A stretch of 38,419 nucleotides of DNA, from contig JAQTZZ010000035.1 in the NCBI GenBank assembly GCA_028687545.1, positions 1 through 38,419 of the forward strand, given 5' to 3'. The notes under the pieces were generated by a model. It saw nothing but the letters and a program-made list of their open reading frames with translations. It ran no database searches and was not told the DNA's origin. Position 1 is the stretch's first letter, and every line of letters begins with the position of its first letter. A program made the translations under genes and the position numbers. Shown piece after piece: positions 989 through 38,419 of this stretch. The DNA is from Candidatus Wallbacteria bacterium. GTDB taxonomy: Bacteria > Muiribacteriota > JAQTZZ01.

Positions 989-1600
989 ATGAAAATTCCA
1001 AATACTGATTTTAAGCTTGAAGTCTCTGCATTCAAAGCCAGCAAAGGCATGCTGACGACCGGAGAAGCGAAGCAACAGGGGATATCCATCTACACCCTGA
1101 AAAGAATGACATCCTGCGGGCTTATTATTCGCCTTGGAAGGGGCTTTTATCGACTGGCTGAACTTCCGCCGCTTGAAAACTCTGACCTGACCCTGGTTTC
1201 ATTGAGAGCGCCTGAAGCTGTTATCTGCCTGATTTCAGCACTGGACTTCCATCACCTCACGACCAGGATTCCTCACTACATATATCTTGCAGTGGAAAGG
1301 GGGCGGAACCGCCCCAGAATTTCATACCCGCGGACCAGGATATTTCAATTTGCAGGCAAGTCATTCAGCGAAGGCATAGAAAAGCACCAATTTGACAATC
1401 AACTGGTTCGGATTTATTCAGTCGAAAAAACCCTGGCTGATTGCTTCAAATATCGCAACAAAATCGGAATGGATGTAATTCTGGAAGCACTGAAAAACTA
1501 CAGGCAGTCGAAAAAATTCAATGTGGAAAAGGTCCTCTACTATGCCGATCTTTGCCGAGTCGAGAGCGTAATAAGTCCCTATCTGGAGACACTGCTTTGA
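989..1600 (+). CDS. abiEi: AbiEi-type antitoxin / transcriptional regulator (type IV TA)
   Basis: A 203-residue protein of the AbiEi antitoxin family. The N-terminal part (about residues 17-60) reads as the winged-helix domain, with LTTGEAKQQGIS and a GLIIRLGRGFYRL wing. The C-terminal part contains the conserved SVEKTLADCFKYRNKIG segment (about 148-164). In known systems AbiEi neutralises the AbiEii toxin without stable complex formation and represses the operon. An operator-like inverted repeat lies just upstream. Its TGA stop overlaps the TTG start of AbiEii in the tetranucleotide TTGA (1597-1600), indicating translational coupling. Family assignment is from the conserved motifs and the partner gene. 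Confidence 0.9.
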   Translation: MKIPNTDFKLEVSAFKASKGMLTTGEAKQQGISIYTLKRMTSCGLIIRLGRGFYRLAELPPLENSDLTLVSLRAPEAVICLISALDFHHLTTRIPHYIYLAVERGRNRPRISYPRTRIFQFAGKSFSEGIEKHQFDNQLVRIYSVEKTLADCFKYRNKIGMDVILEALKNYRQSKKFNVEKVLYYADLCRVESVISPYLETLL

Positions 1601-2508
1601 AAAAGGAAATCAAAAATATTCAGGCTTCAATCAATAGAAGGCTTTCAAACCTATCAGTTGAAACAAATAGACCCTTTAACGATCTGCTGAGAAATTACGG
1701 AATAGAGCGCTTCTTATACAGACTCTCAGCTTCCCCTCATAGAGATTGTTTTGTACTGAAAGGGGCACTGATGCTTCAGATCTGGAAACTCGGTCCGACC
1801 AGGCCGACGATGGACATTGATCTGCTAGGTAGGACTGACAATACTCTTGAGAATATCATGACAATGATAAAGGAAATCTGTTCGAGCCCTGTGGAACCGG
1901 ATGGACTGGATTTCGACAGCAACAGCGTCACGGTTGAGAACATCACAGCAAACATGGAATACGTTGGTGTCAGAGTAAAGCTGCTCGCCAGATTGAGCAA
2001 TGTGCGAATTCACATGCAGATTGACATCGGCTTTGGTGATAAGATTATTCCCTGCGATCAAATGATCGACTACCCCACACTTCTGGATTTCCCGGCACCC
2101 AGAATCCATGGTTATTCCAGAGAAAGCGCTATTGCCGAGAAATTTCATGCCATGGTGCAGCATGGCAGGCTGAACAGCAGGATGAAGGATTTTTACGATA
2201 TCTGGTTCCTGACGCAAAACTTGGACTTTGAACTATCCATCATATCCACAGCCATCAGAACTGTTTTTGAAAGTCGGGATACCAGAGCTCCCTTGAGTTC
2301 AACTGATTTACTGAGGATGCTTGCTGGAGATCCAGTGAAATCAGCTCAATGGAAAGGTTTCATCAACAATATTTTCTTTCAGGATTTAAAAATCGGATTC
2401 CCGGAAATCGCGGAGATGCTGATTATATTTTTTAATCCAGTTCTGGAAGCCATACACAGTGGTAATTCCAGCTATACTACCTGGAAACATCCAGGGCCAT
2501 GGCTCTGA
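1597..2508 (+). CDS. abiEii: AbiEii/AbiGii-type nucleotidyltransferase toxin
   Basis: A 303-residue DNA polymerase beta-like nucleotidyltransferase. The KGALML motif (about residue 55) is followed by the metal-binding MDIDLL (Asp73 and Asp75). The family signature ESAIAEKFHAM (about 176) and RMKDFYDIW (about 196) follow. Related toxins transfer nucleotides to tRNA acceptor ends and cause abortive infection or stasis. The start is taken as TTG at 1597, overlapping the AbiEi stop. The open frame extends further upstream, but that part lies inside AbiEi and is not homologous. The next gene begins only 6 nt after its stop, so the trio is probably one transcript. Confidence 0.9.
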   Translation: MKKEIKNIQASINRRLSNLSVETNRPFNDLLRNYGIERFLYRLSASPHRDCFVLKGALMLQIWKLGPTRPTMDIDLLGRTDNTLENIMTMIKEICSSPVEPDGLDFDSNSVTVENITANMEYVGVRVKLLARLSNVRIHMQIDIGFGDKIIPCDQMIDYPTLLDFPAPRIHGYSRESAIAEKFHAMVQHGRLNSRMKDFYDIWFLTQNLDFELSIISTAIRTVFESRDTRAPLSSTDLLRMLAGDPVKSAQWKGFINNIFFQDLKIGFPEIAEMLIIFFNPVLEAIHSGNSSYTTWKHPGPWL

Positions 2509-2514
2509 GAGATC

Positions 2515-4977
2515 ATGGCAGAAAACAATGATCTCTCTTTCTGGCTGAACAGGCTTGTGGAAATCGAGCAGAATATCTCAAATTTGATCGAAGAAAAAAA
2601 CAAGGTCAGACTGGAGATAGCCAGACTTAAAGAAAAGCCAGTTATTCTTCCCACAATTCTTGGGAAACCCGCATCTGACAAAGTTCCGGAAACTCCGGAT
2701 GAAAAGATTGCTTTATTCCTCAAACTTTTCCGATGTCGCGAAGACATCTACCCTAAGTATTGGGAAAATCAGTCAAAAGGAACAAAAGGTTATTCTCCGG
2801 TCTGCAGGAATGAATGGGTAAAAGCGTTTTGCAGTAAGCCTTCCATTAAATGCACTGAATGCAAGAACCGTGCTTTTGAGGCTCTGAACGAAACCGCTGT
2901 AAAATCTCATCTTGAAGGCAGACTGGTTATTGGAACCTATGCCATCCGGGAGAATGACACCTGCACTTTTCTGGCAGTAGATTTTGATGATGAGTCATGG
3001 CTGGAAGACTCGGAAGCATACAGAAAGTCAGCCAGGGAATTCGGCATTGAAACCGGGCTCGAACGTTCAAGGTCAGGTAACGGTGCCCATGCCTGGATCT
3101 TTTTCTCTGAGCCGGTACCGGCCTGCCTTGCCAGACGTCTCGGCACTCTGATCCTTTCCCAGGCATCAGTCGCAAGAGCTTTACTGTCACTTGCCAGCTA
3201 CGACAGGTTTTTTCCCAGCCAGGATTATCTTCCTAAAGGCGGCTTCGGCAATCTGATCGCTCTTCCCTTGCAGAAATCCGCCAGAGAAAATGGCAATACA
3301 GAATTTCTGGATGAAAAATTTATTCCTTATGAGAACCAATGGCAATTCCTTGCCAGATGCAGGATGATCTCTTGCCGTGAAATAGAGACACTACTTAACT
3401 CTCAGAACATAGTATCTGACTCATCTGCTGCCTATGAGGAACATGAATTGATGCTTGATGAAAAGACGCTCAAGTCTTCTGCCAGGCATAAGCTGAAAGG
3501 CTGTTACCCCGGACAAGTGGTAATTGCAATTGACTCTCAAATCAGGATCAATCTGGAAGGTCTGCCGCAGAACCTGATCAATGCCTTGAAGAATACTGCG
3601 GTATTCGCCAATCCTAAGTTTTACGAGCTGCAACGGTTAAGATTTTCCACTTGGAAAACACCCAGATATATCTTTTGTGGAGAATTGTTGAGTAAGACGC
3701 TTCTCCTGCCCAGGGGAGTTCTCGACACATGCCTGGAGTTGCTTGGTATTGCAACTGCTAAAGTCAGTTGCACCGACAATCGGGAAAACAGAAAGAAAAT
3801 CAAAGTTAAGTTTCTGGGAAAACTGCTGCCTGAACAGAAATCTGCCTGTGCAGGCATCTGTGAATACGAAACAGGAGTGCTTGTTGCTCCGCCAGGAGCT
3901 GGTAAGACCGTAATTGCCTGTCAGATGATCGGAACGAGAAAACTGCCGACACTTATCCTAACCCATAGATCCCAACTTCTGGAACAGTGGAGACAGCAGC
4001 TCAAGATTTTCCTGAGCATAAAATCCGACAAAATTGGAGCTATCAGGGGCAGCAAGAAGAAAGCCACAGGTTTTATCGACCTGGCTATGCTGCAGACGAT
4101 CTCAAAACTGGAAGACACCGATTTTCTAAGCCAGTATGGGCAGGTGATTGTGGATGAATGTCACCACATTCCTGCATTCAGCTTCGAATCTGTCATGAAG
4201 AAAATCCCTGCAAAATTCGTATTAGGCCTTACAGCTACTCCATACCGAAAGGATGGTCATCAACCGATCATTCATATGCAGTGCGGTCCGGTCAGGTATG
4301 AAATGAAGGAGCTTTCAGGCCAGAAATTCGAGAAAAAAGCGATCGTAAAAAAGACTGGCGTGGCCTTTCCTGCCGATCCGGACCAGGAACTGATGATTCA
4401 GGAATTCTATGAGATAATCGTCAATGACCGGAAACGCCTGGAGTTGATTGCTGATGATGTGGCTGGAGTGATTGCAGACGGAGGGTTCCCTCTCGTCCTT
4501 TCAGAACGGAAAGAACACCTGAACCTGCTGTCAGTTTCAATCAGGGATAGAACCAAGTTCCCTGTAAAAGAGTTTATTCTGGCGGGCAGTCTTAACAAAC
4601 GTACCCGGGAACAGGTCAATGCGGAAATCAGCGAATGCCTGTCCAAAGGCTCTCGCCCATTTATACTGGCCACAGGCCAGCTGATCGGGGAAGGATTCAA
4701 CCTGCCGGTACTGGACACATTGTTTTTGGCAATGCCCTTTTCATTCAAAGGTAAGCTCGTGCAGTATGCGGGGAGAATTCAGCGGGATAGTGCAGGAAAA
4801 AAGACAATTATCATCTATGATTACCTTGACGAAGCCTCTCCACTGGCTCTATCGATGTTTCGGAAACGCAGATCAACCTATCGGAAACTTGGATACAAGA
4901 TAATCGTACCTGGAGAGCACGATCATTCTTTCATTGATAATGATCAGCTGAAACTACCACCTGCTGGCGCGAAATGA
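2515..4977 (+). CDS. TOTE-like primase-helicase (archaeo-eukaryotic primase + superfamily 2 helicase)
   Basis: An 820-residue two-enzyme protein. Residues about 8-45 form a short coiled coil (LNRLVEIEQNISNLIEEKNK). Residues about 60-300 match the primase domain of TOTE conflict systems: FLAVDFDDE (about 153-161) supplies the catalytic acids and GNGAHAWIFF (about 187-196) the sxH-type motif. A Cys pair, KCTEC, lies near 110. A superfamily 2 helicase follows: Walker A APPGAGKT (about 458-465), VIVDECHH (Walker B, about 543-550), LTATPYR, and a motif VI-like QYAGRIQRD. No extra nuclease domain is visible at the C-terminus. Family proteins are thought to copy or unwind invading nucleic acid in counter-invader defence. 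The physical link to AbiE is unusual and suggests a joint module. Confidence 0.85.
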   Translation: MAENNDLSFWLNRLVEIEQNISNLIEEKNKVRLEIARLKEKPVILPTILGKPASDKVPETPDEKIALFLKLFRCREDIYPKYWENQSKGTKGYSPVCRNEWVKAFCSKPSIKCTECKNRAFEALNETAVKSHLEGRLVIGTYAIRENDTCTFLAVDFDDESWLEDSEAYRKSAREFGIETGLERSRSGNGAHAWIFFSEPVPACLARRLGTLILSQASVARALLSLASYDRFFPSQDYLPKGGFGNLIALPLQKSARENGNTEFLDEKFIPYENQWQFLARCRMISCREIETLLNSQNIVSDSSAAYEEHELMLDEKTLKSSARHKLKGCYPGQVVIAIDSQIRINLEGLPQNLINALKNTAVFANPKFYELQRLRFSTWKTPRYIFCGELLSKTLLLPRGVLDTCLELLGIATAKVSCTDNRENRKKIKVKFLGKLLPEQKSACAGICEYETGVLVAPPGAGKTVIACQMIGTRKLPTLILTHRSQLLEQWRQQLKIFLSIKSDKIGAIRGSKKKATGFIDLAMLQTISKLEDTDFLSQYGQVIVDECHHIPAFSFESVMKKIPAKFVLGLTATPYRKDGHQPIIHMQCGPVRYEMKELSGQKFEKKAIVKKTGVAFPADPDQELMIQEFYEIIVNDRKRLELIADDVAGVIADGGFPLVLSERKEHLNLLSVSIRDRTKFPVKEFILAGSLNKRTREQVNAEISECLSKGSRPFILATGQLIGEGFNLPVLDTLFLAMPFSFKGKLVQYAGRIQRDSAGKKTIIIYDYLDEASPLALSMFRKRRSTYRKLGYKIIVPGEHDHSFIDNDQLKLPPAGAK

Positions 4978-5115
4978 TTGATTCAAAACAGCTACAAGGA
5001 AATCTCAGATTACATATTTCCGGTATTACTCAACTTACCAATTCCCCACCTAGTCAATTAGTCGTTTATAGTTGTGCCACATCGTTAATCTACTGTTCTC
5101 ACGCCATCAATCAGC

Positions 5116-5132
5116 TCTCGTCCCCGGCACCA
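5116..5132 (+). other. Attachment-site core, right copy
   Basis: An exact 17-nt copy of the tRNA-Leu 3' end including CCA. The preceding bases are unrelated to the tRNA body, so this is not a second tRNA. It closes the island opened at the tRNA gene. The 4978-5115 stretch before it has no recognisable gene. Confidence 0.75.
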
Positions 5133-5137
5133 AAAGC

Positions 5138-5167
5138 AAAAAGGCCTCTTTAAAGGGGCCTTTTTTT
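5138..5167 (+). terminator. Rho-independent terminator after the right core
   Basis: Stem AAAAAGGCC (5138-5146) / GGCCTTTTT (5157-5165) with a 10-nt loop and a run of seven T. It stands in the same position relative to the core as the terminator after tRNA-Leu, but its sequence differs. Confidence 0.8.
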
Positions 5168-5183
5168 AATACCAACGGCACAG

Positions 5184-5193
5184 TGATAACCCA
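5184..5193. promoter_or_regulatory. TGATAACCCA box after the right core
   Basis: The same 10-nt box as at 820 and 833, preceded by CACAG as on the left (CACAGG there). It starts 52 nt after the last base of the core, against 54 nt on the left. Possible integrase arm site; inference. Confidence 0.35.
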
Positions 5194-5299
5194 ATGATGC
5201 TCAGACAGAAAATTGAGGCTGATCAGGTTGATTCATGCCAGTAGCTGGTTGTTGCCGAAAGATTTATTGACTTGTCTGTTTTTCGATAAAATGTCTTGT

Positions 5300-5349
5300 C
5301 TTATTAAAAATATTGATGTAATCTTTTAATATGGAAAAACTTATTAAAA
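5300..5349. promoter_or_regulatory. Three-box operator-like element overlapping the fic start
   Basis: Three 10-nt boxes: CTTATTAAAA (5300-5309), TTTTAATATG (5324-5333) and CTTATTAAAA (5340-5349). The middle box is an inverted copy of the outer ones with one mismatch. The ATG of fic is the end of the middle box, and the third box lies in codons 4-7. The same three boxes recur downstream of the gene with identical 24- and 16-nt start-to-start spacings. A weak promoter (TTGACT at 5267, TAAAAT at 5287, short 14-nt spacer) lies just upstream. The Fic protein ends in a winged helix, so autorepression is plausible. Confidence 0.6.
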
Positions 5350-6488
5350 CTTCTGAAGATTTGACTGGATTTGTTGCAGGGACCAATAAACAGCAGTTTC
5401 AGTACAAAAGCTTCAGTCCTTCCTTGATCAACAGGCCTTGGGAATTCAATGACAGGAAAATGATTCTGAATCTTGAAGATGCTATACGGCTTGTGGGTGA
5501 GCTGAACGCTTATTCTTCCCTTGTTCCAGACATAGATTTTTTCATCAGGATGCACGTTGTTAAAGAAGCCACCACTTCCAGCAGGATCGAAGGCACCAGA
5601 ACTGAGATCGATGAAGCTGTGATGAAAGAGGAAGAAATCACGCCTGAGCGTCGGGATGATTGGCTGGAAGTCCAGAACTACATCAAAGCCATGAATTCCG
5701 CTATAGAAGAACTTGACAGGCTGCCTCTTTCAATGAGACTGTTGAAAAACACTCATTCCATTCTGATGTCCGGAGCTAGAGGCAGCAACAAGTACCCTGG
5801 AGAAATCAGGAAATCTCAGAACTGGATTGGCGGATCAAACCTGAGCAACGCATTTTTCGTCCCTCCTCATCCTGATGAATTGCCTGATCTTCTATCTGAT
5901 TTGGAAAAATTCTGGCACAACGATGATCTGGAAATACCTTTCCTGGTCAAAGTGGCAGTCAGCCATTATCAGTTCGAGACCATTCATCCATTTCTTGATG
6001 GGAATGGGAGAATTGGCCGGTTACTGACTATGCTGCAACTCGTGGACAGGAAACTTTTAAGCAAGCCCACACTTTACCTGTCCGACTTTTTTGCTAGGAA
6101 TAAAGGTTCATACTATGATTCCCTGACTATTGTTAGAACCGGCAACGATATCGAGCAATGGATCAGGTTTTTTTTGGCCGGTGTGAAAGAAACTGCTCAA
6201 AATGGTATCGATACATTCAAAAAAATCATTAAATTAAGAGAATCAGTAGAAAAGAACTTGTTATCCCTGGGCAGGAGAACAGATAAAGGTCTGGAGCTGC
6301 TGAAATTTCTGTTTTCTCAACCAATTGTAACAGTCAATCAAATTTCCGAGGAATTGAAGATTTCTTTTCCGACAGCCAATTCACTATCCAAAGACTTTAT
6401 CAGACTGGGTATTTTTCATGAAATAACAGGTTTTGCTAGAAACAGGCTGTATTCATTCGGAGAATATTTAACTCTGTTCAGGAAGTAA
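5331..6488 (+). CDS. Fic family protein with C-terminal winged helix
   Basis: A 385-residue Fic enzyme that would transfer AMP (or a related group) to a target hydroxyl. The active-site loop is [12 protein letters not shown] (residues 219-230), complete with catalytic His and the phosphate-binding GNGR. The autoinhibitory helix motif S-x3-E-G is present as SSRIEG (83-88), making it a class II Fic with the inhibitory segment in its own N-terminal domain. Residues about 25-95 match the Fic_N domain. Residues about 315-380 ([12 protein letters not shown], then [11 protein letters not shown]) form a winged helix-turn-helix. It stands alone, without a separate antitoxin, after the right core of the island. 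The AT-rich start region carries the three-box element, which probably determines its regulation. The target is unknown. Confidence 0.92.
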
Positions 6489-9147: not shown

Positions 9148-10341
9148 TCACTGATTTCCGGCACTGCGTTTGATGTTGAGCATTATGCCTATGGATATGG
9201 CCACGAAAATCAGGACAATGAATGACCCAAAGAACTTTCTGATGCCCATCGGCGCAGAGCACCAGACATCATTAAAGGTATGATTATCCTCGTCAGAGCC
9301 GCCGATTATCCAGATCCTGTCCTTGAAAACAACGCTCGATTGCGAAAATCTCGGGCTGAATCCCGCATTCTTTCTCGGATGCCCCCAGTTTGCCCCGTCT
9401 TTGGAAAACCAGATGTCATTCAGGCATGTTTTCTCACATTCGCCGCCTGTTATCCAGATTTTCCCCTGATATTCCAGGGCTGAATGCAGGGCGCGCTTGC
9501 CAAAGCCGCCATGCTGAGTGACAAGCTGCCAGTCAATGCCGTTTCTGGAAGACCAGACATCGTCCAAGTATGATATTCCATCAGCGAAAGCCATGCCTCC
9601 GATCATCCACAGGCAGTCGTTATGCACCACCAGGGCAGTAGAGTCTCTCAGATTGAAAGACGCTGCAGGCACCTCAAGCTTCCATTTCACTCCATCAGCA
9701 GAAGAAAAGACTGAGTTTTTGCTTTTATCCTCAAAACTCTTTATCAGCCAGATCCTGTCCTTAAAAAGAACGCATCCTGCCAGGTTTTTATAGAAATCAG
9801 CGGAATTGAAAATCTGTGTCCACTTTACTCCATCATTGCTGTTCCAGACCATCAACTGATGATCATATCCGTTTCTGGAGATTACCCACATCTTATCCTG
9901 GAAAATAAAACCTGAAAGCAGATAACCGCCAAAAGTATTGCAGTCAGAAATCACTTCCTTCCAGATGGTTCCGTCTGCTGAGTTCCAGACGTCTCCACCA
10001 CCTTTTACTGCCGGATTGCCTCCACCGATAACCCAGATTTTATCCTGAAAGACCAGGCTCAGGTGAGAAGCGCGCGGGCTGAATCCTGCGTCCGCGGTTT
10101 TCTGGATCCAGCCATTGACCCTCACTTTGCCGGATTTTTGTACAGAAGCTGCAGGCATTTCAAGCGTCGGCGCAGGCGCTGGAGTGGCCGCAGGTGTAAG
10201 CGTAACAATTCTCAGTTCAGGCGTTGCGGCTGTTTGCACAGGCTGGCCCTGGGAAATCCTTTGAGCAATTGCACCAGCGGCAATGCAATGAAAAAGGATC
10301 AGCGAAATCAGTAAACCTGCAAAGATATTACCTTTTTTCAT
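9148..10341 (-). CDS. Exported, membrane-anchored six-bladed kelch-type propeller protein
   Basis: A 397-residue protein with a signal peptide (residues 1-27, MKKGNIFAGLL...AIAQ) and a low-complexity Pro/Ala/Thr linker. Six kelch-like blades follow, each built as V-F-x-D-x-[IL]-W-[VI]-I-G-G then D-V-W-x-S-x-D-G-x-x-W. It ends in a C-terminal transmembrane helix (FIVLIFVAISIGIMLNI) and a short basic tail. It would display a beta-propeller outside the cytoplasmic membrane. The blade motif is the same as in the giant protein at 30803-38419. The ATG at 10341 has GGAG 5 nt upstream; the frame from 10389 has no ribosome site. Binding partner unknown. Confidence 0.88.
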   Translation of the reverse strand: MKKGNIFAGLLISLILFHCIAAGAIAQRISQGQPVQTAATPELRIVTLTPAATPAPAPTLEMPAASVQKSGKVRVNGWIQKTADAGFSPRASHLSLVFQDKIWVIGGGNPAVKGGGDVWNSADGTIWKEVISDCNTFGGYLLSGFIFQDKMWVISRNGYDHQLMVWNSNDGVKWTQIFNSADFYKNLAGCVLFKDRIWLIKSFEDKSKNSVFSSADGVKWKLEVPAASFNLRDSTALVVHNDCLWMIGGMAFADGISYLDDVWSSRNGIDWQLVTQHGGFGKRALHSALEYQGKIWITGGECEKTCLNDIWFSKDGANWGHPRKNAGFSPRFSQSSVVFKDRIWIIGGSDEDNHTFNDVWCSAPMGIRKFFGSFIVLIFVAISIGIMLNIKRSAGNQ

Positions 10342-10363
10342 AAATACTCCACCTGTTTTAGAT

Positions 10364-10372
10364 ATGATACCA
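10364..10372 (-). promoter_or_regulatory. Extended -10 promoter of the kelch gene
   Basis: On the minus strand TGGTATCAT (extended -10 TGn plus a TATAAT-like box). A nearly identical segment precedes the GNAT gene at 11444-11452. No -35 at standard spacing, which extended -10 promoters tolerate. Confidence 0.4.
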
Positions 10373-10417
10373 GAATGGAAATTTTCCATCGAGTCAACGC
10401 AGAAGCGCTGGTAGAAC

Positions 10418-27936: not shown

Positions 27937-28054
27937 CTTATTTATATTATTACTCTAAAAGAGAAAGATGTCAAGCAGCACCGGGAGACCCAGTGGTTCG
28001 CCACTAGATTAATTTTAAATTAACATTTTCTCTGATCATGGTTATCATTTGTAC

Positions 28055-29998
28055 ATGCCTGCAAACAGCCTGCTCAGAATCGCCTTTTTATCAGATACGC
28101 ACCTTGGCTTTGACTATCCTGTCAGGTCTGAAAACCACCAGGGCCGCAGGGGCAAGGATTTTTTCGATAACTTCGAACTTGCCCTGCAGATTTCGGTTGA
28201 CAGATCAGCAGACTTGATCATTCATGGCGGCGACTTCTTTTTTAGAAGTAAAATTTCCAATAAAATCGAACAGATGGCCTTTTCAATGCTTTCGCGTTTC
28301 ATGAGGCACAGGATTCCATTTCTGATCATTCCAGGCAATCATGAACGCTCCCGCCTGCCTCTCTCTCTCCTGCTGCAGCATCCTGATCTGCATGTGTTTT
28401 CTGCTCCTGAGTCAATCAGGCTGAAGATCAGAAATCTAAGCCTCAGGATTGACGGGATTCCTTTCATTGGGAACGGGGTCAGAGACAAGTTCAGCGGAAT
28501 CATTGCAGCTTTCAAACAGGATCAGGTCAAGGCTGACTTCAATCTGCTCTGCCTGCATGAATCAATTGAAGGAGCGCAGGTCGGACCTTCAAACTTTACC
28601 TTCAGGTATGGACCGGATGTGATCAGAGCCTGCGATCTGCCTGACGGATATGACTGCATTCTGGCAGGCCACATCCACAGGTCTCAAGTGCTTGCGCATC
28701 AGTCAGGCGACAGGCTGATCCCTGTGATTTATGCCGGATCAATAGAACGCACTTCATTTGCTGAAAAAAACGAGCAGAAAGGATTTTACCTGTTGGAACT
28801 GGAGCAGGAGAAACTCCCAAGCCTGAAATACGAATTCAGTCCTCTGCCTGCCAGGGAAATGATCAGTCTGGATCTGAATAGCTCTGACCCGGTTGATCTC
28901 AAATCCAGGTTTAAGCAGATGTTCGAAAGTCTCCCCTGCCGCTCGATAGTGCGGATATCATGCGAAAATATCCCGGATTCCGGAATCATCAAAGAAGCTG
29001 CGCCTGATCAGATGATAATCCAGCTCAATCGCAAAATCTACTATAAAAAAGGCATCCAGAGCGATGGCTGTGTTCTGCCTGAATCTGAAAAACTTCCCGC
29101 TTTACCCGAACTACCTGGTGTCTATATCTTCTACGGAAATACAGATAAAATAATTTATATTGGGAAATCCGTGAATCTGAAGAACAGGGTACGCAGTTAT
29201 TTCAGCACACCCAGGGATAAAACAGTCGCACAGAAGAAGAAGATCAAAGTCAGCCGGATCGAAACAATCACCGTTGAATGCGAACTTGAAGCCTTGCTGC
29301 TTGAGGATTCCCTGATCAAGAAGCATCGTCCGCTTTACAACATCAAACAGAAGAACTGCTCAGAATATGTTTATCTTGCAATGACTTGCGGATCATTTCC
29401 ATGTCTCCGCATCATAGGATTGAATGATGCAGGGAATTACGCTGAGTATTTCGGCCCCTTTAAGGACAGGTTCCTGGCTGAACAGATCCGGGAAATCTGC
29501 TCTGCTAATCTGAAATTCAGGAACTGCGTCAGCGATGTCCCGGCAAACAGATGTTTTTATTATGGGATCGGGAAATGCTCAGGTCCCTGTTTTCAAAAGA
29601 TCAGCAGAGAGCAGTATCAGGAAATCAGCAGCCAGGCGACCGATTTTTTAAATGGCAGCTCCGGGTTGATCCGCAGCAGGATTGAAGAGAGGATGCAGGC
29701 CCATTCGGAAAAGCAGGAATTCGAACTGGCAGAGAAGCTGAAACAATTGTCTGAATTCTGCGAAAGATTCTGCCAGGCCCAGGTCTTTATCCGGAATTTC
29801 AGGCAGCAGAACCTGGAAATCAGATTTGCTGATTTCAGCCTGCTGTTCGAACACGGCAGATTCACAGGCAGGCGGAATGATTCTGAGGCTAAATCCCTGC
29901 AAGCCGAAGACCCCAGATTCATGCTGGAGCGGGCTCTGATTGTAAAAAACTGGGTCACAGCCCACAAAGACCTCTGCACCTGCATTTTTTCCGGATGA
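28055..29998 (+). CDS. SbcD/Mre11-like phosphoesterase fused to a UvrC N-terminal (GIY-YIG) module
   Basis: A 647-residue fusion. Residues 8-270 are a metallophosphoesterase with all five SbcD/Mre11-type motifs: SDTH (Asp14, His16), HGGD (Asp60), PGNHE (Asn95, His96), CLHES (His168), GHIH (His206, His208). From 352 a UvrC-like GIY-YIG nuclease follows: LPGVYIFY, IIYIGKS (368-370), NLKNRVR and Glu417. The UvrC Cys cluster comes next (Cys491, 500, 508, 512, in GKCSGPC), then a UVR motif (about 542-566). The RNase H-like and HhH parts of UvrC are absent, as is the Mre11 capping partner SbcC/Rad50 nearby. Probably a two-nuclease DNA repair or defence enzyme. ATG 28055 lacks a clear ribosome site; TTG 28049 is an alternative. 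Confidence 0.85.
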   Translation: MPANSLLRIAFLSDTHLGFDYPVRSENHQGRRGKDFFDNFELALQISVDRSADLIIHGGDFFFRSKISNKIEQMAFSMLSRFMRHRIPFLIIPGNHERSRLPLSLLLQHPDLHVFSAPESIRLKIRNLSLRIDGIPFIGNGVRDKFSGIIAAFKQDQVKADFNLLCLHESIEGAQVGPSNFTFRYGPDVIRACDLPDGYDCILAGHIHRSQVLAHQSGDRLIPVIYAGSIERTSFAEKNEQKGFYLLELEQEKLPSLKYEFSPLPAREMISLDLNSSDPVDLKSRFKQMFESLPCRSIVRISCENIPDSGIIKEAAPDQMIIQLNRKIYYKKGIQSDGCVLPESEKLPALPELPGVYIFYGNTDKIIYIGKSVNLKNRVRSYFSTPRDKTVAQKKKIKVSRIETITVECELEALLLEDSLIKKHRPLYNIKQKNCSEYVYLAMTCGSFPCLRIIGLNDAGNYAEYFGPFKDRFLAEQIREICSANLKFRNCVSDVPANRCFYYGIGKCSGPCFQKISREQYQEISSQATDFLNGSSGLIRSRIEERMQAHSEKQEFELAEKLKQLSEFCERFCQAQVFIRNFRQQNLEIRFADFSLLFEHGRFTGRRNDSEAKSLQAEDPRFMLERALIVKNWVTAHKDLCTCIFSG

Positions 29999-30008
29999 CT
30001 GAAATATC

Positions 30009-30806
30009 TTACGGAGTATAGACAAGGCGCAGGCCGAGGTCATCGCATTTTCCAGTAGGTACGAGCGAATCGCGGAAAGCTGATCTGCAGCACCGTGCGA
30101 AGCTGCGCCAGGAACCGCCCCTGATCACCCGGTTGTCGTCCAGGTATTGGCCTGGAGGATCGTTTTTCGGGCTGCCTGAGTAATATTCAGGGGAATAGCA
30201 GTCAGCACACCATTCCCTGACGCTGCCGCTCATGTCGTAGAGACCCCATCCGTTTGGCAGCTTCTGCCCTACATCCTGGGTTTCATCAAAATTCAAGTCA
30301 CTGAACAGACAGTAATCCCCCTTGATCTTATCTCCCCAGTAATACAATGTATTGCTGCCAGAGCGGCAGGCAAATTCCCATTCCGCTTCAGTGGGCAGAC
30401 GATAAGTTCCCTTTCCAGCCAGATTCAGGGCTTTGATGAATTCCTGACAGTCAGCCCATGAGACCAGTTCGACCGGCTTCTGCATCCCCTCGAAACAGGA
30501 TGGATTTGATCCAAGCACCGCAGTCCACTGGGCCTGGGTCACCTCATATTTCCCGATCCAGAAGCTTTTCGTGATGTTTACTTCATGGCTGGGATGTTCG
30601 TCGTTCTCTCCCTGTCCGGCAGGGCTTCCCATCCAGAATTTCCCCGCAGGTATGAAGCAGAACTCCATCTTCACCTCAGGCGTTATTTCAACGGCCATTC
30701 CGGTTCCTGCTTCGGCTGTTGAGACAGTCACTTGCCTGGCTGCGGTTTCAGAGCCTGCATAAACCGAAGTGACAGCTGCAAAAAATAATAAAATCCAGAT
30801 CTTCAA
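30009..30806 (-). CDS. Secreted formylglycine-generating-enzyme-like (SUMF1) protein
   Basis: A 265-residue exported protein. The signal peptide is residues 1-17 (MKIWILLFFAAVTSVYA). The FGE-sulfatase fold spans about 45-265: FIPAGKFWMGS, YEVTQAQW, RLPTEAEWEFACRSG, GLYDMSGSVREWC, RVIRGGSW, and a C-terminal ARCCRSAFRD. True FGEs oxidise a sulfatase Cys, but many secreted relatives are binding or non-enzymatic. No sulfatase is in the window. The start is TTG at 30806, overlapping the stop of the giant gene as TTGA, so translation is probably coupled. It ends 10 nt from the convergent fusion gene. Confidence 0.85.
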   Translation of the reverse strand: MKIWILLFFAAVTSVYAGSETAARQVTVSTAEAGTGMAVEITPEVKMEFCFIPAGKFWMGSPAGQGENDEHPSHEVNITKSFWIGKYEVTQAQWTAVLGSNPSCFEGMQKPVELVSWADCQEFIKALNLAGKGTYRLPTEAEWEFACRSGSNTLYYWGDKIKGDYCLFSDLNFDETQDVGQKLPNGWGLYDMSGSVREWCADCYSPEYYSGSPKNDPPGQYLDDNRVIRGGSWRSFARCCRSAFRDSLVPTGKCDDLGLRLVYTP

Positions 30807-31410
30807 TTCTGTATCCTGTAACTGTAATCAAGGGTTCCGTTCCCGATCATGAAAATCCAGTAACCCTGGCAGGGAGTCAGGGAATTCAAGGTGGAAAACC
30901 CGATGCTGCCGGTGTTCATGAAAGTGCGGAATCCTTCAGGCCCGTCAACTGTTGTGCGATAAAAACCCATGATGTATCTGGCGCTTGCTCCATTCACCAG
31001 CGGAGCATTGAAGATCGAATCGATCACAGTGTAGGTCTGGCTGAGCTGCTGTGGAAGAGGTTTTTTATCGATCCAGTAGCCAGCCAGATTCCAGCCGGCA
31101 AACAGGTTGATCCGGCTGTCCGTCTGGATCGGAACCCCTGAAACTTCCAGGGTCTCGTCTCCTGTCATGTAGATCCAGTAGCCGTGATATCCGTCCATGG
31201 TGAGCAGAGTGCTGAACTGCCTGAGATTATCGATGTTCATATAAGTCTTGAAACCTTCGTTTTGAAGGTCAGTCGGGTTACGCATGAATCCCATCACATA
31301 TCTCAGCCTGGTCAGATCACGGAAAATCACCTCTATGCTTCCCTGCTGAGGGGTCAGGCCCAGAGAAATCAGATTCCAGCCGGATTTCAGGGGGATCTGA
31401 TTCGAAGAAG
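30803..31410 (-). repeat. Duplicated C-terminal GWNL domain
   Basis: Two copies of about 100 residues, opening SGWNLISLGL and AGWNLAGYWI, each containing RY[VI]MGF and F-[KR]-T-[YF]-M-N, and ending GYWI-[YF]-M. A putative secretion or attachment domain; role inferred from position only. Confidence 0.65.
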
Positions 31411-34400
31411 CGCCCTGCTCTGCTGCTGTTTTGAAATACCAGACATCGGATCTGGCTCCTGTGCTGCCTGTGTCTCCCCCGCCGATCACCCAGATGTATC
31501 CTCCGAAGGCAATTGCAGTCTGGCCGGTCCTTGGGCTGAACCCGGCGTTTTCCTGATATTTAACCCAGTTCGCTCCATCCGTGGAATACCAGATGTCGTT
31601 GAGAGGAGTGCTCGAGTCAGGCCCGCCGCCGATCAGCCAGATCCTGTCATTGTATACTACACAGGAATGACCTGTCCTGACTCCAAACGGAGCGGAGAGC
31701 ACAGCCTGTGTCCAGTATATGCCGTCAGCCGAGCTCCAGACATCAGCACAGCCGTCTCCACCGATCACCCAGATCCTGTTGTTGAAGACTACGCTGGCAT
31801 GCCCGACCCTGTGTCCGAACTGGGCTGTGATGGTGGCTGAATTCCAGAGTACTCCTTCTGAAGAATACCAGACCCTGGAATCATTGTTTTCACCGCCGAT
31901 GATCCACATTTTCCCGTTAAAAACCACGCTGGAATGATAGCCTACATTGCCGCTCAGCATATTGGAGGTGGATAGATTCCAGGTCCTGCCGTCAACAGAA
32001 CTCCAGACATCCTTGAAGCCGCTGCCGCCGATCACCCACAGCCTGCCGTTAAAAACCAGGCAGGTGTGCCCGTTCCGGACCCCGAACTGTGCGCTCGAGG
32101 TTTCGCAGGTCCAGCTCCAGCCGTCAGCCGAACTCCAGACGTCGCTCGTCGAGCTGCCGCCGACCACCCACAGCTTGTTGTTGAAAGCCGAACCTGCAGC
32201 CCTGATCCTTGGACTGAAGCCCGGATCCTCCCTGGCGCTGATCCAGTCGGATCCCTGGCTCAAAATGTGCACAGTCAGGGTCCGGGCTGCGGTTACAGAA
32301 TTGAAGGTATATCCGGCTGTCAGCTCCGCGTTCCCGGGGATTCCGGGTGCAAAGTAAGATCCGCTGCCGATGGTCCCGTATCCTGACTTGATCGACCAGT
32401 TCAGGCTGCAGACCGATCTGGAGCCGTCGATAAAAATGACTTCAGTAGTGGGTTCAAGGAGGCAGGACTGATTGGTACAAAGGGTGATTTCCGTTGTTTT
32501 CAGGCTGAATGAGGCAGGCACTTTCACCCTGGTATATACTGCCAGGCTGCGTCTGAAGGTCTCTGTCTGGTAAGTGTAGGCCGCTGAAAGCTCAGCTGTC
32601 GCGCAGCTGCCCGGTGCTGAGTATATGAAGCCGTTGAGGTCGCCGCTGCCGTGTTCGAGCGACCATGAAAGATCTCCGCTGAGGTGAGAACCATCGCTGA
32701 AATAGATTTCAGCAGTCTGCTGGAGGGATAAAGACTGGCTTTCAGACAGAGTGACTTCAGTGGTGGAAAGAACGGTGTTCACAGGAAATCTCAGTGTGTC
32801 TTTAAACAGGCTGGGGGATTGCCAGACTTCGCTGGTGTCGATATCCTGGTCAGTGTGCCCCGCAATCGCCAGGATCCTGCCCTGGAATGCCACGCAGCAC
32901 AGCTCAGTGCGGGGTGAAAATCCGCTGGCTGTTTCTTCGATCCAGCTGATTCCATCGCTGGAATGCCAGAAGTCGTTCTTCGGATTTCCGTAAATATCAT
33001 TGCCACCGATCACCCACAGCAGATCGTCGAATGCTATCCCTGCGTGTCCGCCCCTGATTTCAGTCCTCCTGGGAAGGCCGTTATTCATCTGCATTGTCCA
33101 GAGACAGCCGTCAGCGGAATTCCAGAGATCCTGGTTCGCATCCCCGCCGTACAGCCAGATTTTATTTTTATAGACTGCGCAGGAATGCTTCTTATGGCTG
33201 TCGAACTGGCCTGAGACGACGGCTGTTTCCCAGTTTTTCCCGTCAGCCGAGCAATAGACCCGGCTGCCGTTGCCGTCACCGCCGATCAGCCAGAGCTTGT
33301 TGTTGAAGACAACAGCGGCATGATCCTTGATCACTCCGGAAGGAAGGTTCCGGCACTTCTGAACCCAGTTTCTGCCGTCTTCTGAAGCCCAGACATCACT
33401 GCAGCCTTCGCCGCCGATCACAAAGAGCTGGTTATCGAAAGCAAGGCAGACATGCCCGGTTCTCGGGCCGAATGGAGCGCCCGCCACTTCGCAGGTCCAG
33501 GCAGATCCGTCGCCTGAGCTCCAGACATCGCTCGCCGAGCTGCCGCCGATCAGCCAGACCCTGTCGTTGAACACAGCGCAGGCTGATTGTGACCTTGGAG
33601 AAAACCCAGGATTCAGCGTCAGCCTGTTCCATGCCCTGAAGTATTTGAAGATCCAGTTCTGGTTATTGCCTGAATCCAGGCTGGACTCTGCAATGATGCC
33701 GTTGACTGCCGCGCAATCCGCTACATCAGCCAGAGACACTTCTTCGCTGCCGTTATCCTGGAACGTGAATCTTGAACCAGGGACAGAACTTCTCAATTTA
33801 ACCAGGCTGTCCGCTGAGCCTGCGATGGAGAGAGTTCCATTCAGGCCGTATGTCTTGCCTGAGAGAAAATTGAGCTGGCTGCCTGGAGTCAGGCAGGAGA
33901 GCGAATAAAACCCGATCCCAGCGGTCCCGTTAAAAGTAGCGCTGCCTCTGCAGATCACAGAACCGGAAGCAGGAGTCACGAAACAGGCGTTATTGGTGAT
34001 TGCAGCATTGGGTTCAAGAATCAGATCAGCTCCATGCGGGCTGAAAGCTCCGCTGGTCAATGTCAGACGGTTTTCCACAGTGATCCCGACTGGCAGCTCG
34101 AATGTGGCATTCCCCAGAGAGGAGAATTCCAGATTGTAATAATTCCTGAGCCCGGGAATCACAATATTCCCGCCGGTTCCGATAAATTTAACCAGGCCTG
34201 AGTTGAAATCATTGTCCAGTGTCACTGATTCAGTTCCAAACGCTTGTAGAGTACCCTGATTTTCAAAAGCTCCGCTGACGGTAAAATTTTTCCCGCCCAG
34301 GCTTAACACTGCACCTGTCTCGATCGTGAGGCTGCTGACAGTCGTATTGCTGGAAAGCACAGGATCGTTTGCTGCAGCCGGGATCTCAACCTTATCGTTG

Positions 34401-37400
34401 ACATTCGGTACATAGCCGAAACTCCAGTTGCCTCCTGTTCCCCAGTCGGTTCCCAGCGCTCCGTTCCAGGTCAGGCCGGTCGAAACAAAAGTCCAGCCGG
34501 AATTATTGCCTGAATCCTTGCTGGTGTAAGCTGTGATTCCATTGACAGCAGTGCAGTCCCGCAGATCCACGAAATTTATCTCTTCAGTCCCTGAATCGCC
34601 GAGATAGAATCTGCCACCAGGACTGGTGGAGAGAATCCTGATCAGATGGCCAGCAGTGCCGGTGATTCTCAGGCCACCCCCGATATTGTAAGTCCTGCCT
34701 GCCTGAAAAATCAGACTGCTGCCGGCTGTTGCGGCAGTCAGATCATGAAAACTGATGTCGCAAGCTCCCAGGAAACTCGCGTTTCCCAGGCAGTTTAAAT
34801 TTCCCGACATGGCGATGAAACTGGAGTCATTCTCTACTGTTCCGCCGGCTGCAAGCGTGATCTGCCTGCCATTCTGGTTGAGCAACCCGGACTGCACTTC
34901 CAGGGTTGAATTGACAACGATATCTGCAGGAAGCCTGAATTCGGCGTCGCCGGCAGATGCGAAGACCAGATGATGATAATTCGCAAGATCCTTGATCGTG
35001 ATAGTTCCAGTATCCTTCACAAATCTGGTCTTCCCAGAATCAGCATCATTGCCTGTGGCGAAATGGACGGACCCTTCATCGCCGTTCAGTTCCAGGGTAC
35101 CGTTATTATGGAATCCCTCAGTGACCTCAAGTGAATTGCCGTTCAGTATCAGGCTGGCTCCAGCCTGGATCTCCAGGCTGTCGATTTCAACCTCAGCGGT
35201 AAGTTTCGGCTGATTCGCAGCCGGCTGGATCACGACCCTGTCTGTCATGTTGGGAAGATAGCCAAGATCCCAGTTGGACGGCTCGAACCACCCGTCAGAA
35301 GCAGTGCCGTTCCAGGTCAGCGTGGAAATAGAGAAGGTCCAGTTGCTGTTGTGGCCTGAATCCCTGCTGTGATGCGCTGTAATTCCGTTGACTGCAGAGC
35401 AGTCTGATACATCGGAATAGGAAATTTCCTCTGTACCGCAATCATTGATGCTGAAACTTACTCCCAGGCTCGAGCTCCGCAGGCGGATCAGATTGGCATT
35501 ACCGCCGACAATCTTGAGCGCTCCAGCCATCCCGTATGTGCAGCCGGCCTGGAAAAGCAAAGTCTTTGCCGGGACAGTACAAACGAAGTTATTGAAATCA
35601 AAACTGCCGTTCAGCGTGAAATTCCCGGCCCCTGCCGCTTCCACTGTCCCGCTGTTATGACTGAACGTGCCGCAGTTCGCAGCAGTGACTTCGCCTGTGA
35701 AAACTGTACTGGCAGCTGCAGTGTATGTCCCGCTGTTCGTCCAGTTCCCGTAAAACAGGTGACTGCAGGCTCCGCCGCTGAAACTCCCTGCATTGCTGAA
35801 ATCCCCGCTGACCTCAAGATTGAACAGGCCTGTGCTGAGAGTGCCTGAGGCAATTTCGAAAGTTTCCGCGACCCTGAGATCAGCGCTGAGCTGGAACGGT
35901 CCGGCAGAGCAGAGCTCCAGTTTACGGTATCCCCAGTGATTGAGGTTACCGCTGCCGCCTGTATATCTGACTTCAGCGCCAGGGTTGAGCGTTGGTTCGG
36001 TAACTGACTGGCCTGCGCTGACTTCCAGGGTGCCGTTGTCGATAAAGGATGCTTTTCCTGAACTGACTGTGAAAGCGTGGTCCCCTGTCCGCAGGGTGGC
36101 GCCTGCAGCGATGGACAGGCTTGATACAGAAGCTGAGGCGGACAGCACAGGCCTGGCCAGGGCTGAGAGCGCTGCATTGTCGAAACTAGAGGGCACAAAT
36201 CCGTCGCACCAGTTGCCTGGATTTGCCCAGTCTGTGTCGGATGCGCCGGTCCAGGAACTGACAATCCCTGAAAAATCCCAGCCCGAACTGTCACCCAGCA
36301 GCGAAGAATGGACAGGCACAATCAAGTCCCCGGTGTTCATGGAATCCTTGACAAAGACATAGCTGACTGCAGCCGCTGCAACGCTGATCTCTGCCGAATC
36401 TCCTTCAATGGTGGAAAAAAGACTGATCAGGCTTCCCACAGCTCCGGTGAGAGTCAGGGAATCAAAAGACTGCAGCTTCGAGTCGGCTGCATCAAAGCGG
36501 ATGATTCTGCCCGGCACATCGCAGTTAAAGCTATGGAAGGCGGTGGAACCAGTGAATGAAGTGGAATTGCCTGCTGATCCGGTAAGTATTACTGCGCCCT
36601 GATTGTGGTGATAGATGTTCTGCTGATTCCAGCTTTCCCCTGCCCCGACCACTTCGGTAGTTCCGGCTGTGGCAGTATAAACACCGGTATTGGTCCAGCT
36701 TCCGGAGAAATAGTGCCTCCCGCTGCTGCCCAGAAAACATCCGCTGGAGTTGAAGTCCCCGTTGAATCTCAAATCAGTCCCGTTTTCCCGCAGCGTTCCA
36801 CTGATGATTGTTTCGCCTGTGATTGTGACAGTCTGGCCGGCTCTGGTTTCCAGCGTAGTATCTGTCTCAACCACAAGGCCGCCGGCTACGTTGAGGGGAG
36901 CGGCCGGAGCTGTATAGCTGCTTCCGGGACCGGTGAGTTTGAGGCATTGATAGGGCCAGTTGTATAGAGTGCCTGACCCGCCGGAATACTTGATGGTAGC
37001 GCCTGGAAGGATTGAAGGCTGTGTAATGCCTGCATCGATGATGGAGCCCGAGATTTCCAGTGTGCCTGCTGTTACAAAACCTGAGGTCGCTTCCAGGGTT
37101 TTCCCGTTCGCATGGAGTGTGGCACCGACTTCGATGGTCAGGCTGCTGATCCTCGTATTTCCTGCAAATACAGGCTGCCTTGCTGTGAGCGGCACAGTCA
37201 CATTGTCGTATTCGGTCGGGACAGATCCAAGATTCCAGTTTCCCCCGGCATTCCAGGCTGAAGAGACGCTGCCGTTCCAGGAGACGACGCTGTTTGAGAA
37301 AATCCATCCTGAGTTGTTCCCGAGATTGGAAGAAACTGTTGGGTAAATCTGTGTGCCTGTATTGTTGGAGTCTTTGACCAGCACACATTCCGCTGTCCCT

Positions 37401-38419
37401 GTTGAAACGATGATCCGGGCGGCATTGTTGTCCAAAGAGGAGACAATCTTGATCGGATTTCCACTCGCGCCCTGCAGAACCAGGGATCCGACAGTCTGAA
37501 TCCCGGCAGCGTCAAAGTTGATCGTCTTCCCGCCGCTGAAGCAGGCCAGCCGGTTGAAGGTATTGGTGCCGCGAAGATTAAAAATGCCTGTTCCCTTAAT
37601 CTCAAAAACTCCGCCGTTATGGCTGTATGAACCGCCTGCCGTGTTGAGAGTCTTGCCTGTTCCAGTCACTTCCAGAGTTCCGCTCGTGGCATTGAATGTG
37701 CCGCTGGAAATCGTGAGATTTCCGCCAAAAGTGTTTTTCCCGCTCCCGCCGTTGTAAGTTCCGCTCGTCATTGAAAAATCGCCATTATCAGTAATGATGC
37801 CTGTGCCTGAACCGATAGATCCGCTGAGAGCCAGGCTGCTGAAAGTAAGGTTTGCGCTGCCTGGATTCAGCGTGCCTGCAATTCCGGTCGCGCCTGTTAC
37901 ACTAAGGTTGTGATTTTGAGTGTCCAGGATTGCGCTTTCCACTGTCAGGTTGCCGCCTACAGAAAAATCGACCAGCTGCCTGAATGTGTCTTTGCTTGTA
38001 CCATCTTCAGCTCCTGAGATGATCAGGTGATTATAAAACCAGCTTTTAAGATTATAGGTGTCTGCTGTGTCATTATGCGTACCATGGTAAATCACTGTGG
38101 AAGTGGGATTGTTGGTAGTGATGCCACCGGTGAAAGCGATGCTCTCACCGCCCTGCAGTTCGATTGTGCCGCTGTTATCAGTAGCGCTTGAAACTGAAAT
38201 GCTCTGCCCGTTCAGATTGAGAGTGGAACCGCTCTGGATGGTCAGGGAAAGCAGTTGTGTCGCTCCAGCCAAAACCGGCTGCCTTGCGGCATTGGCGATC
38301 ACAGCTTTGTCGTACTGACCCAGGGTTACACCGCTATCCCAGTTGCCAGCTGTTGCGAAACTGGTGTCAGAGGCTCCGGTCCAGGTGATGCTGCCGAAAA
38401 TCCAGTTGGGATTATTGTA
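30803..38419 (-). CDS. Giant surface-type repeat protein with kelch propellers (N-terminus outside window)
   Basis: 2538 residues are visible and the frame stays open to the window edge, so the true start is upstream; the GTG at 38302 lies inside a repeat unit and is not the start. From N to C: five tandem beta-rich units (SWNG/TWTG at each start, GNW-x-G-x-[VL]-P, SL-x-I-x-GA-x-L, DSGNNSGW at each end), a six-bladed kelch block, two Ig-like repeats, a second six-bladed kelch block and a duplicated domain opening [SA]GWNL. No LPxTG, autotransporter barrel or C-terminal helix is seen, so the anchoring route is unclear. Probably a cell-surface adhesin or recognition protein. It is coupled to the FGE-like gene. 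Confidence 0.85.
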   Translation of the reverse strand, partial: YNNPNWIFGSITWTGASDTSFATAGNWDSGVTLGQYDKAVIANAARQPVLAGATQLLSLTIQSGSTLNLNGQSISVSSATDNSGTIELQGGESIAFTGGITTNNPTSTVIYHGTHNDTADTYNLKSWFYNHLIISGAEDGTSKDTFRQLVDFSVGGNLTVESAILDTQNHNLSVTGATGIAGTLNPGSANLTFSSLALSGSIGSGTGIITDNGDFSMTSGTYNGGSGKNTFGGNLTISSGTFNATSGTLEVTGTGKTLNTAGGSYSHNGGVFEIKGTGIFNLRGTNTFNRLACFSGGKTINFDAAGIQTVGSLVLQGASGNPIKIVSSLDNNAARIIVSTGTAECVLVKDSNNTGTQIYPTVSSNLGNNSGWIFSNSVVSWNGSVSSAWNAGGNWNLGSVPTEYDNVTVPLTARQPVFAGNTRISSLTIEVGATLHANGKTLEATSGFVTAGTLEISGSIIDAGITQPSILPGATIKYSGGSGTLYNWPYQCLKLTGPGSSYTAPAAPLNVAGGLVVETDTTLETRAGQTVTITGETIISGTLRENGTDLRFNGDFNSSGCFLGSSGRHYFSGSWTNTGVYTATAGTTEVVGAGESWNQQNIYHHNQGAVILTGSAGNSTSFTGSTAFHSFNCDVPGRIIRFDAADSKLQSFDSLTLTGAVGSLISLFSTIEGDSAEISVAAAAVSYVFVKDSMNTGDLIVPVHSSLLGDSSGWDFSGIVSSWTGASDTDWANPGNWCDGFVPSSFDNAALSALARPVLSASASVSSLSIAAGATLRTGDHAFTVSSGKASFIDNGTLEVSAGQSVTEPTLNPGAEVRYTGGSGNLNHWGYRKLELCSAGPFQLSADLRVAETFEIASGTLSTGLFNLEVSGDFSNAGSFSGGACSHLFYGNWTNSGTYTAAASTVFTGEVTAANCGTFSHNSGTVEAAGAGNFTLNGSFDFNNFVCTVPAKTLLFQAGCTYGMAGALKIVGGNANLIRLRSSSLGVSFSINDCGTEEISYSDVSDCSAVNGITAHHSRDSGHNSNWTFSISTLTWNGTASDGWFEPSNWDLGYLPNMTDRVVIQPAANQPKLTAEVEIDSLEIQAGASLILNGNSLEVTEGFHNNGTLELNGDEGSVHFATGNDADSGKTRFVKDTGTITIKDLANYHHLVFASAGDAEFRLPADIVVNSTLEVQSGLLNQNGRQITLAAGGTVENDSSFIAMSGNLNCLGNASFLGACDISFHDLTAATAGSSLIFQAGRTYNIGGGLRITGTAGHLIRILSTSPGGRFYLGDSGTEEINFVDLRDCTAVNGITAYTSKDSGNNSGWTFVSTGLTWNGALGTDWGTGGNWSFGYVPNVNDKVEIPAAANDPVLSSNTTVSSLTIETGAVLSLGGKNFTVSGAFENQGTLQAFGTESVTLDNDFNSGLVKFIGTGGNIVIPGLRNYYNLEFSSLGNATFELPVGITVENRLTLTSGAFSPHGADLILEPNAAITNNACFVTPASGSVICRGSATFNGTAGIGFYSLSCLTPGSQLNFLSGKTYGLNGTLSIAGSADSLVKLRSSVPGSRFTFQDNGSEEVSLADVADCAAVNGIIAESSLDSGNNQNWIFKYFRAWNRLTLNPGFSPRSQSACAVFNDRVWLIGGSSASDVWSSGDGSAWTCEVAGAPFGPRTGHVCLAFDNQLFVIGGEGCSDVWASEDGRNWVQKCRNLPSGVIKDHAAVVFNNKLWLIGGDGNGSRVYCSADGKNWETAVVSGQFDSHKKHSCAVYKNKIWLYGGDANQDLWNSADGCLWTMQMNNGLPRRTEIRGGHAGIAFDDLLWVIGGNDIYGNPKNDFWHSSDGISWIEETASGFSPRTELCCVAFQGRILAIAGHTDQDIDTSEVWQSPSLFKDTLRFPVNTVLSTTEVTLSESQSLSLQQTAEIYFSDGSHLSGDLSWSLEHGSGDLNGFIYSAPGSCATAELSAAYTYQTETFRRSLAVYTRVKVPASFSLKTTEITLCTNQSCLLEPTTEVIFIDGSRSVCSLNWSIKSGYGTIGSGSYFAPGIPGNAELTAGYTFNSVTAARTLTVHILSQGSDWISAREDPGFSPRIRAAGSAFNNKLWVVGGSSTSDVWSSADGWSWTCETSSAQFGVRNGHTCLVFNGRLWVIGGSGFKDVWSSVDGRTWNLSTSNMLSGNVGYHSSVVFNGKMWIIGGENNDSRVWYSSEGVLWNSATITAQFGHRVGHASVVFNNRIWVIGGDGCADVWSSADGIYWTQAVLSAPFGVRTGHSCVVYNDRIWLIGGGPDSSTPLNDIWYSTDGANWVKYQENAGFSPRTGQTAIAFGGYIWVIGGGDTGSTGARSDVWYFKTAAEQGASSNQIPLKSGWNLISLGLTPQQGSIEVIFRDLTRLRYVMGFMRNPTDLQNEGFKTYMNIDNLRQFSTLLTMDGYHGYWIYMTGDETLEVSGVPIQTDSRINLFAGWNLAGYWIDKKPLPQQLSQTYTVIDSIFNAPLVNGASARYIMGFYRTTVDGPEGFRTFMNTGSIGFSTLNSLTPCQGYWIFMIGNGTLDYSYRIQN
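31430..32245 (-). repeat. Second six-bladed kelch block
   Basis: Six blades with V-F-N-x-[KR]-[LMI]-W-[VI]-I-G-G and DVWSS-[AV]-DG, again opened by PGFSPR. Very similar blade sequence to the first block and to the protein at 9148. Confidence 0.75.
32250..32815 (-). repeat. Two Ig-like repeats
   Basis: Two copies of a domain of about 90 residues with [ST]-TE-[VI]-TL near the start, IYFSDGS or IFIDGS in the middle and AELSAAYTY or AELTAGYTF near the end. They separate the two kelch blocks. Confidence 0.65.
32818..33636 (-). repeat. First six-bladed kelch block
   Basis: Six repeats of F-N-x-[KR]-[VL]-W-L-I-G-G followed by [DR]-[VLF]-[WY]-x-S-x-D-G-x-x-W, starting at PGFSPR. Six blades would close one propeller. 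Confidence 0.75.
33640..38419 (-). repeat. Five tandem beta-rich units of the giant protein
   Basis: Conserved Trp codons marking unit starts are near 38381, 37278, 36252, 35313 and 34467. Units end in DSG-x-N-x-x-W. Lengths fall from about 368 to 342, 313, 282 and about 270 codons. The first unit is seen from its start with its upstream neighbour's end at the window edge. Protein similarity is clear; DNA identity is low, so the duplications are old. Confidence 0.75.

Follow-up and report, generated by a model that had tools for sequence, protein, structure and literature searches.

An Mre11-like phosphoesterase and a Cho-like GIY-YIG nuclease recur as a fused or neighbouring pair in little-studied bacterial phyla

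A single reading frame in a contig assigned to Candidatus Wallbacteria (38,419 nucleotides, analysed at its full length and referred to here as the window) encodes an Mre11-like phosphoesterase joined to a Cho-like GIY-YIG nuclease, and we regard it as virtually certain that both domains are correctly identified and that the fusion is real. Because the same pair recurs, fused or in adjacent genes, across several little-studied bacterial phyla, it looks like an uncharacterised DNA-repair module.

Architecture of the fused protein

Inspection of the open reading frames in the window identified the gene at 28055-29998 of the plus strand, with an ATG start and 647 codons uninterrupted by stops; translation could also begin at an in-frame TTG at 28049. 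As the initial annotation had read from the letters alone, a phosphoesterase, a GIY-YIG nuclease, a four-cysteine cluster and a UVR motif lie in this one frame, the first two matching the Pfam families Metallophos and GIY-YIG, the UVR motif matching Pfam below threshold and the cysteines being read from the sequence. The features of the gene are as follows:

28020..28048, plus strand: promoter-like TTAACA-17-TATCAT (consensus scan; count not clearly above shuffles)
28055..29998, plus strand: whole gene, Mre11-like phosphoesterase / Cho-like GIY-YIG nuclease fusion, 647 aa (ORF, Pfam and profile matches, L037 homologue, AlphaFold model)
28073..29044, plus strand: Mre11/SbcD-type phosphoesterase and capping region, approximately residues 7-330 (Pfam Metallophos; PDB Mre11 by sequence and fold)
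29045..29077, plus strand: linker between the nuclease halves, approximately residues 331-341 (pLDDT; gene boundary of split homologues nearby)
29087..29341, plus strand: GIY-YIG nuclease domain, residues 345-429, with Y357, Y368, K371, R378, E417 and N429 (Pfam; UvrC structures 1yd6 and 1ycz)
29525..29590, plus strand: UvrC/Cho-type four-cysteine cluster C491, C500, C508, C512 (read from the sequence)
29663..29806, plus strand: UVR (UvrB-binding-type) helical hairpin, Pfam match at residues 542-563 (sub-threshold Pfam; FE.A core kept; modelled helices)
29810..29995, plus strand: C-terminal intermediate region, residues 586-647 (hhalign to UvrC; R..DRA.IV..W conserved in the partner alignment)

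The promoter-like site ends 7 nt 5' of the ATG, and a clear ribosome-binding site was not seen at 28020-28055; this hints weakly at a transcript with no leader or almost none. An AlphaFold model of the fusion based on 54 homologues has a mean pLDDT of 87.7, with residues 330-341 forming a low-confidence linker (pLDDT <50), and the phosphoesterase and GIY-YIG halves are similar in G+C content.

The N-terminal half matches Pfam Metallophos at residues 7-209 (E=5e-15) and archaeal Mre11 models at residues 8-273; all SbcD/Mre11 models score far below their cut-offs on it. In sequence, the closest solved relatives of the phosphoesterase region are archaeal Mre11 structures, 1ii7 and 4hd0 among them, and the top PDB fold matches of the AlphaFold model are again Mre11 structures. 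A calcineurin-like fold with Mre11 active-site residues is present, and the phosphoesterase motifs that had been called intact are so: all 39 aligned members have the same eight active-site residues (D14, H16, D60, N95, H96, H168, H206 and H208). Enzymes of the Mre11/SbcD type act as Mn-dependent 3'->5' exonucleases and endonucleases. The fusion shares their fold, active-site residues and capping region, and differs from them in its below-cut-off model scores, in the lack of a detectable SbcC in its genome and in a C-terminus that runs on into the GIY-YIG half.

The C-terminal half carries a GIY-YIG domain at residues 355-429 (Pfam, E=9e-11), and its closest solved relatives are the UvrC GIY-YIG structures 1yd6 and 1ycz. 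Residues R378, E417 and N429 of this domain, and three of the four cysteines (C491, C508 and C512), are kept in all 20 aligned C-halves. At residues 542-563 the UVR match is sub-threshold (Pfam, E=0.003; 17.7 bits against a gathering cut-off of 21.5 bits); its core residues are conserved, the AlphaFold model places helices at residues 537-552 and 556-584, and the genome encodes UvrB. The half is matched by TIGR00194 (uvrC) at residues 345-579 (E=2e-56; 191.9 bits against a cut-off of 285.45), by NF005906 (PRK07883-type) at residues 345-582 (E=4e-44) and by NF007833 (Cho; E=1.6e-22). With hhalign it aligns to columns 31-367 of the 640 of UvrC, ending before the RNase H-like nuclease, and residues 586-647 are common to the partner proteins and UvrC up to but excluding that nuclease. 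Pfam gave no match in the fusion to the RNase H-like nuclease or the HhH domain of UvrC, which bears out the suggestion that the second UvrC nuclease is absent.

In a tree of the shared region, whose several long branches limit finer conclusions, 45 of 45 UvrC proteins, including that of this genome, lie on one side of a 97/97 branch, and the fusion C-half groups opposite them with Mre11-linked partner proteins and DEDD-exonuclease-GIY-YIG proteins. Because it falls outside the UvrC clade at this support, the C-half is, as judged from its sequence, a Cho-like paralogue homologous to the N-terminal half of UvrC and not a truncated or degraded UvrC. The earlier description of a fusion to half of UvrC is thus right as to homology and wrong as to UvrC proper, of which the genome retains a full-length copy.

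The N-terminal half of UvrC, including its GIY-YIG, four-cysteine, UVR and intermediate regions, matches the C-half, whereas the RNase H-like 5' nuclease and HhH domain of UvrC are missing. E. coli Cho resembles the C-half as a one-incision type of nuclease with GIY-YIG and four-cysteine regions; unlike Cho, the fusion has a UVR-type and a UvrC-like intermediate region and an N-terminal phosphoesterase. The Cho-like+exonuclease proteins (DEDD exonuclease-GIY-YIG, NCBIfam PRK07883; 'Cho+Exo' and 'Cho-like+Exo' of PMC1564403) likewise consist of an N-terminal nuclease and a GIY-YIG, four-cysteine and UvrB-binding-type region without the UvrC RNase H and HhH domains, but their N-terminal nuclease is a DEDD (DnaQ-like) exonuclease where the fusion has an Mre11-type phosphoesterase. 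PMC1564403 does not list a phosphoesterase version among its families.

Fused and adjacent pairs across phyla

A full-length homologue of the fusion is encoded in a Calditrichaceae MAG (L037) with 41% identity, and more divergent fusions of 677-704 aa occur in three genomes of the WOR-3 phylum, the phylum of record L051. In a Riflebacteria genome (G020) the two halves are separate genes that overlap by 17 nt, and the gene boundary of split homologues falls near the linker of the fusion. The GIY-YIG partner is an adjacent separate gene in 20 further Mre11-like loci, that of the Riflebacteria genome included. In 19 of them the two genes run in the same direction, with -65 to +191 nt between them, and in the remaining one (L070) they converge. 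Thirteen of these loci form one Marinimicrobia cluster, so the 20 are not 20 independent events. The Calditrichaceae homologue, the three other fusions and the adjacent split pairs nevertheless indicate that the frame is no chance join and that an assembly artefact is very unlikely as its origin. Two separate genes in related genomes had been proposed as the sign of a false fusion. The Riflebacteria genome does have them, but because the fusion recurs in other phyla we take the split copies to be operonic relatives and no proof of fusion error. An artefactual fusion, produced by a frameshift or an assembly error, or a UvrC paralogue in decay could point to those overlapping genes, yet the recurrence in other phyla, once with identity over the full length, the retention of every active-site residue and the like G+C of both halves leave such an origin with a negligible chance.

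The Mre11-like family is patchily distributed, being found in 4 of 40 genomes of the Calditrichota group, 18 of 199 Marinimicrobia, 2 of 80 Latescibacterota and 6 of 147 genomes of the WOR-3 phylum; the Gemmatimonadota sample is one genome, from which no frequency can be derived. Of 57 distinct Mre11-like loci, 26 lack a neighbouring GIY-YIG gene, and some of these 26 lie at contig ends. As to a single origin of the fusion, the C-half tree needs three changes, at least two of them forced by starred branches, and an AU test does not reject one clade (p=0.094).

Searches with single full-length protein patterns gave no match in genome or viral contigs, and an alignment of the Mre11-like halves of the window and Riflebacteria proteins found relatives in genome contigs and none in viral contigs. 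Plasmid and phage records held only separate UvrC-like or SbcD-like matches, and a viral fold search returned only generic SbcD-like ones. Both neighbours of the fusion gene, encoding a DUF2339 membrane protein and an FGE-sulfatase-type (SUMF1-type) protein, are on the opposite strand, and the gene therefore stands alone. The patchy spread across phyla would suit an anti-phage or mobile-element nuclease; we consider this highly improbable, given that relatives are absent from viral contigs, that none in phage or plasmid records spans most of the protein, that the flanking genes are ordinary and that PADLOC, with which a defence role was checked and found unsupported, gives marginal matches only.

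Repair genes in carrier genomes

Family searches of the source genome, a MAG that is 97% complete, detected full-length UvrC (500 bits) and UvrB (1002 bits). SbcC was not detectable in this genome, where a small gap in completeness remains and only weak P-loop matches of ~20 bits were obtained, and it was likewise undetected, with similarly weak P-loop matches (~20 bits), in most carriers checked, including three single-chromosome assemblies. Of the co-occurring genes that the initial annotation had singled out, the UvrB and UvrC side is present and SbcC is undetected, and we therefore do not read the SbcD-type half as a component of SbcCD.

These data bear on a reading in which the protein acts on blocked ends or branched DNA independently of nucleotide excision repair: the Mre11-like domain would trim AP sites or ends blocked by a protein or a hairpin, and flaps or branches would be cut by the GIY-YIG domain. 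The closeness of the fold to Mre11 nuclease structures is in keeping with such a role, as is the frequent occurrence of the Mre11-like protein without a GIY-YIG neighbour, and with no detectable SbcC in the genome an SbcCD-like role may be vacant. However, the C-half has Cho-like relatives and still carries the four-cysteine, UVR-type and intermediate regions that UvrC-like proteins have, and we judge end processing to be rather unlikely; with helicase-coupled excision, it is one of the main rivals to the nick-and-resect mechanism set out below.

In six loci the Mre11-like gene adjoins a DEDD-exonuclease-GIY-YIG gene, with an XPD-type helicase upstream in five. The order in WOR-3 and Aminicenantes loci is XPD/Rad3-type helicase, DEDD-exonuclease-GIY-YIG and Mre11-like gene, and in runs of these three genes (L048:1917-7041; also L044, L051, L054 and L065) the helicase has a weak N-terminal PD-(D/E)XK match. 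In Neomarinimicrobiota (L052:6001-9443, L064:5989-9417 and L125) the Mre11-like gene is directly followed by an XPD-type helicase, without a GIY-YIG gene. The split partner in the Riflebacteria genome matches DEDD-exonuclease-Cho models no less well than UvrC models, and does so along a longer stretch (to profile position 534).

Such runs could reflect a joint repair unit: the helicase would stand in for UvrAB in opening the damaged strand, which the GIY-YIG and exonuclease domains would then excise. Consistent with this, an XPD-type helicase stands in the Mre11-like gene run at L044, L048, L051, L052, L054, L064, L065 and L125, and the genome of the fusion encodes a 47% identical helicase. 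The latter is unlinked, however (contig C24), a relative (G001) has the helicase though no Mre11-like match was found there, and close homologues of it are lacking in several genomes that carry the pair; we regard a joint unit of this kind as unlikely.

A proposed nick-and-resect mechanism

We favour, while stopping short of calling it probable, a nick-and-resect mechanism in which a Cho-like excision-repair nuclease has a Rad50-independent Mre11-family enzyme as its accessory nuclease. GIY-YIG domains of UvrC and Cho cut 3' of the lesion. That of the fusion, possibly recruited through the UVR hairpin to a lesion opened by UvrB or a helicase, would make a single nick 3' of the damage. The Mre11-like domain would then take the new 3' end and degrade 3'->5', a direction carried over from characterised Mre11/SbcD proteins, or nick again, through the lesion. 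A 3'-OH gap would be left for repair synthesis, so that 5' incision by the UvrC RNase H domain would not be needed. The order of cuts, the substrates and the contact with UvrB are what we infer here; the intact active sites, the recurrent fused or operonic pair, the distinctness of the C-half from UvrC, the coexistence of UvrB and UvrC and the undetected SbcC all support the mechanism.

A 2006 survey of GIY-YIG proteins described Cho-like domains fused to a DnaQ-type exonuclease (PMC1564403), and Van Houten, Eisen and Hanawalt proposed in 2002, as cited in that survey, that the exonuclease starts at the GIY-YIG nick and digests the DNA through the lesion. The fusion follows the same plan with an Mre11-type nuclease instead, and it is by this analogy that nick-and-resect is favoured. 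Counting against it, the UVR match falls short of the Pfam threshold, the 26 of 57 loci without an adjacent GIY-YIG gene imply that the Mre11-like protein functions outside the pairing or acts at a distance, and the two domains could have separate substrates, with co-regulation the only reason for their fusion.

A search of open-access journal articles returned no description of a phosphoesterase-GIY-YIG fusion or pair. More speculatively, the pair may represent a bacterial excision module that has so far gone undescribed: a Cho-like GIY-YIG nuclease would have a Rad50-independent enzyme of the Mre11 family as its dedicated exonuclease, in some cases together with an XPD-type helicase, and the module would remove lesions, beside UvrABC, through a single 3' nick and subsequent 3'->5' resection. 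The fusion physically joins two families of repair nuclease that belong to different lines of study, the processing of double-strand ends and nucleotide excision, and this linkage occurs in bacteria without a detectable form of the usual Mre11 partner. Its recurrence as a fused or operonic pair yields a concrete, testable prediction of joint action, and the old proposal for Cho with an exonuclease gains a second, unrelated type of nuclease on which it can be tested.

Other genes in the window

More than 20 kb from the fusion, at 989-6488, AbiEi/AbiEii-type genes, an AEP-TOTE primase-helicase and a Fic-family gene stand in a row and resemble a conflict or defence island. On the minus strand, 30803-38302 encodes a 2499-aa repetitive protein with repeated 'WVIGG...VWSSADG' motifs, and 9148-10389 encodes a 413-aa Kelch-repeat protein with motifs similar to those of the larger one; both are probably surface or secreted proteins.
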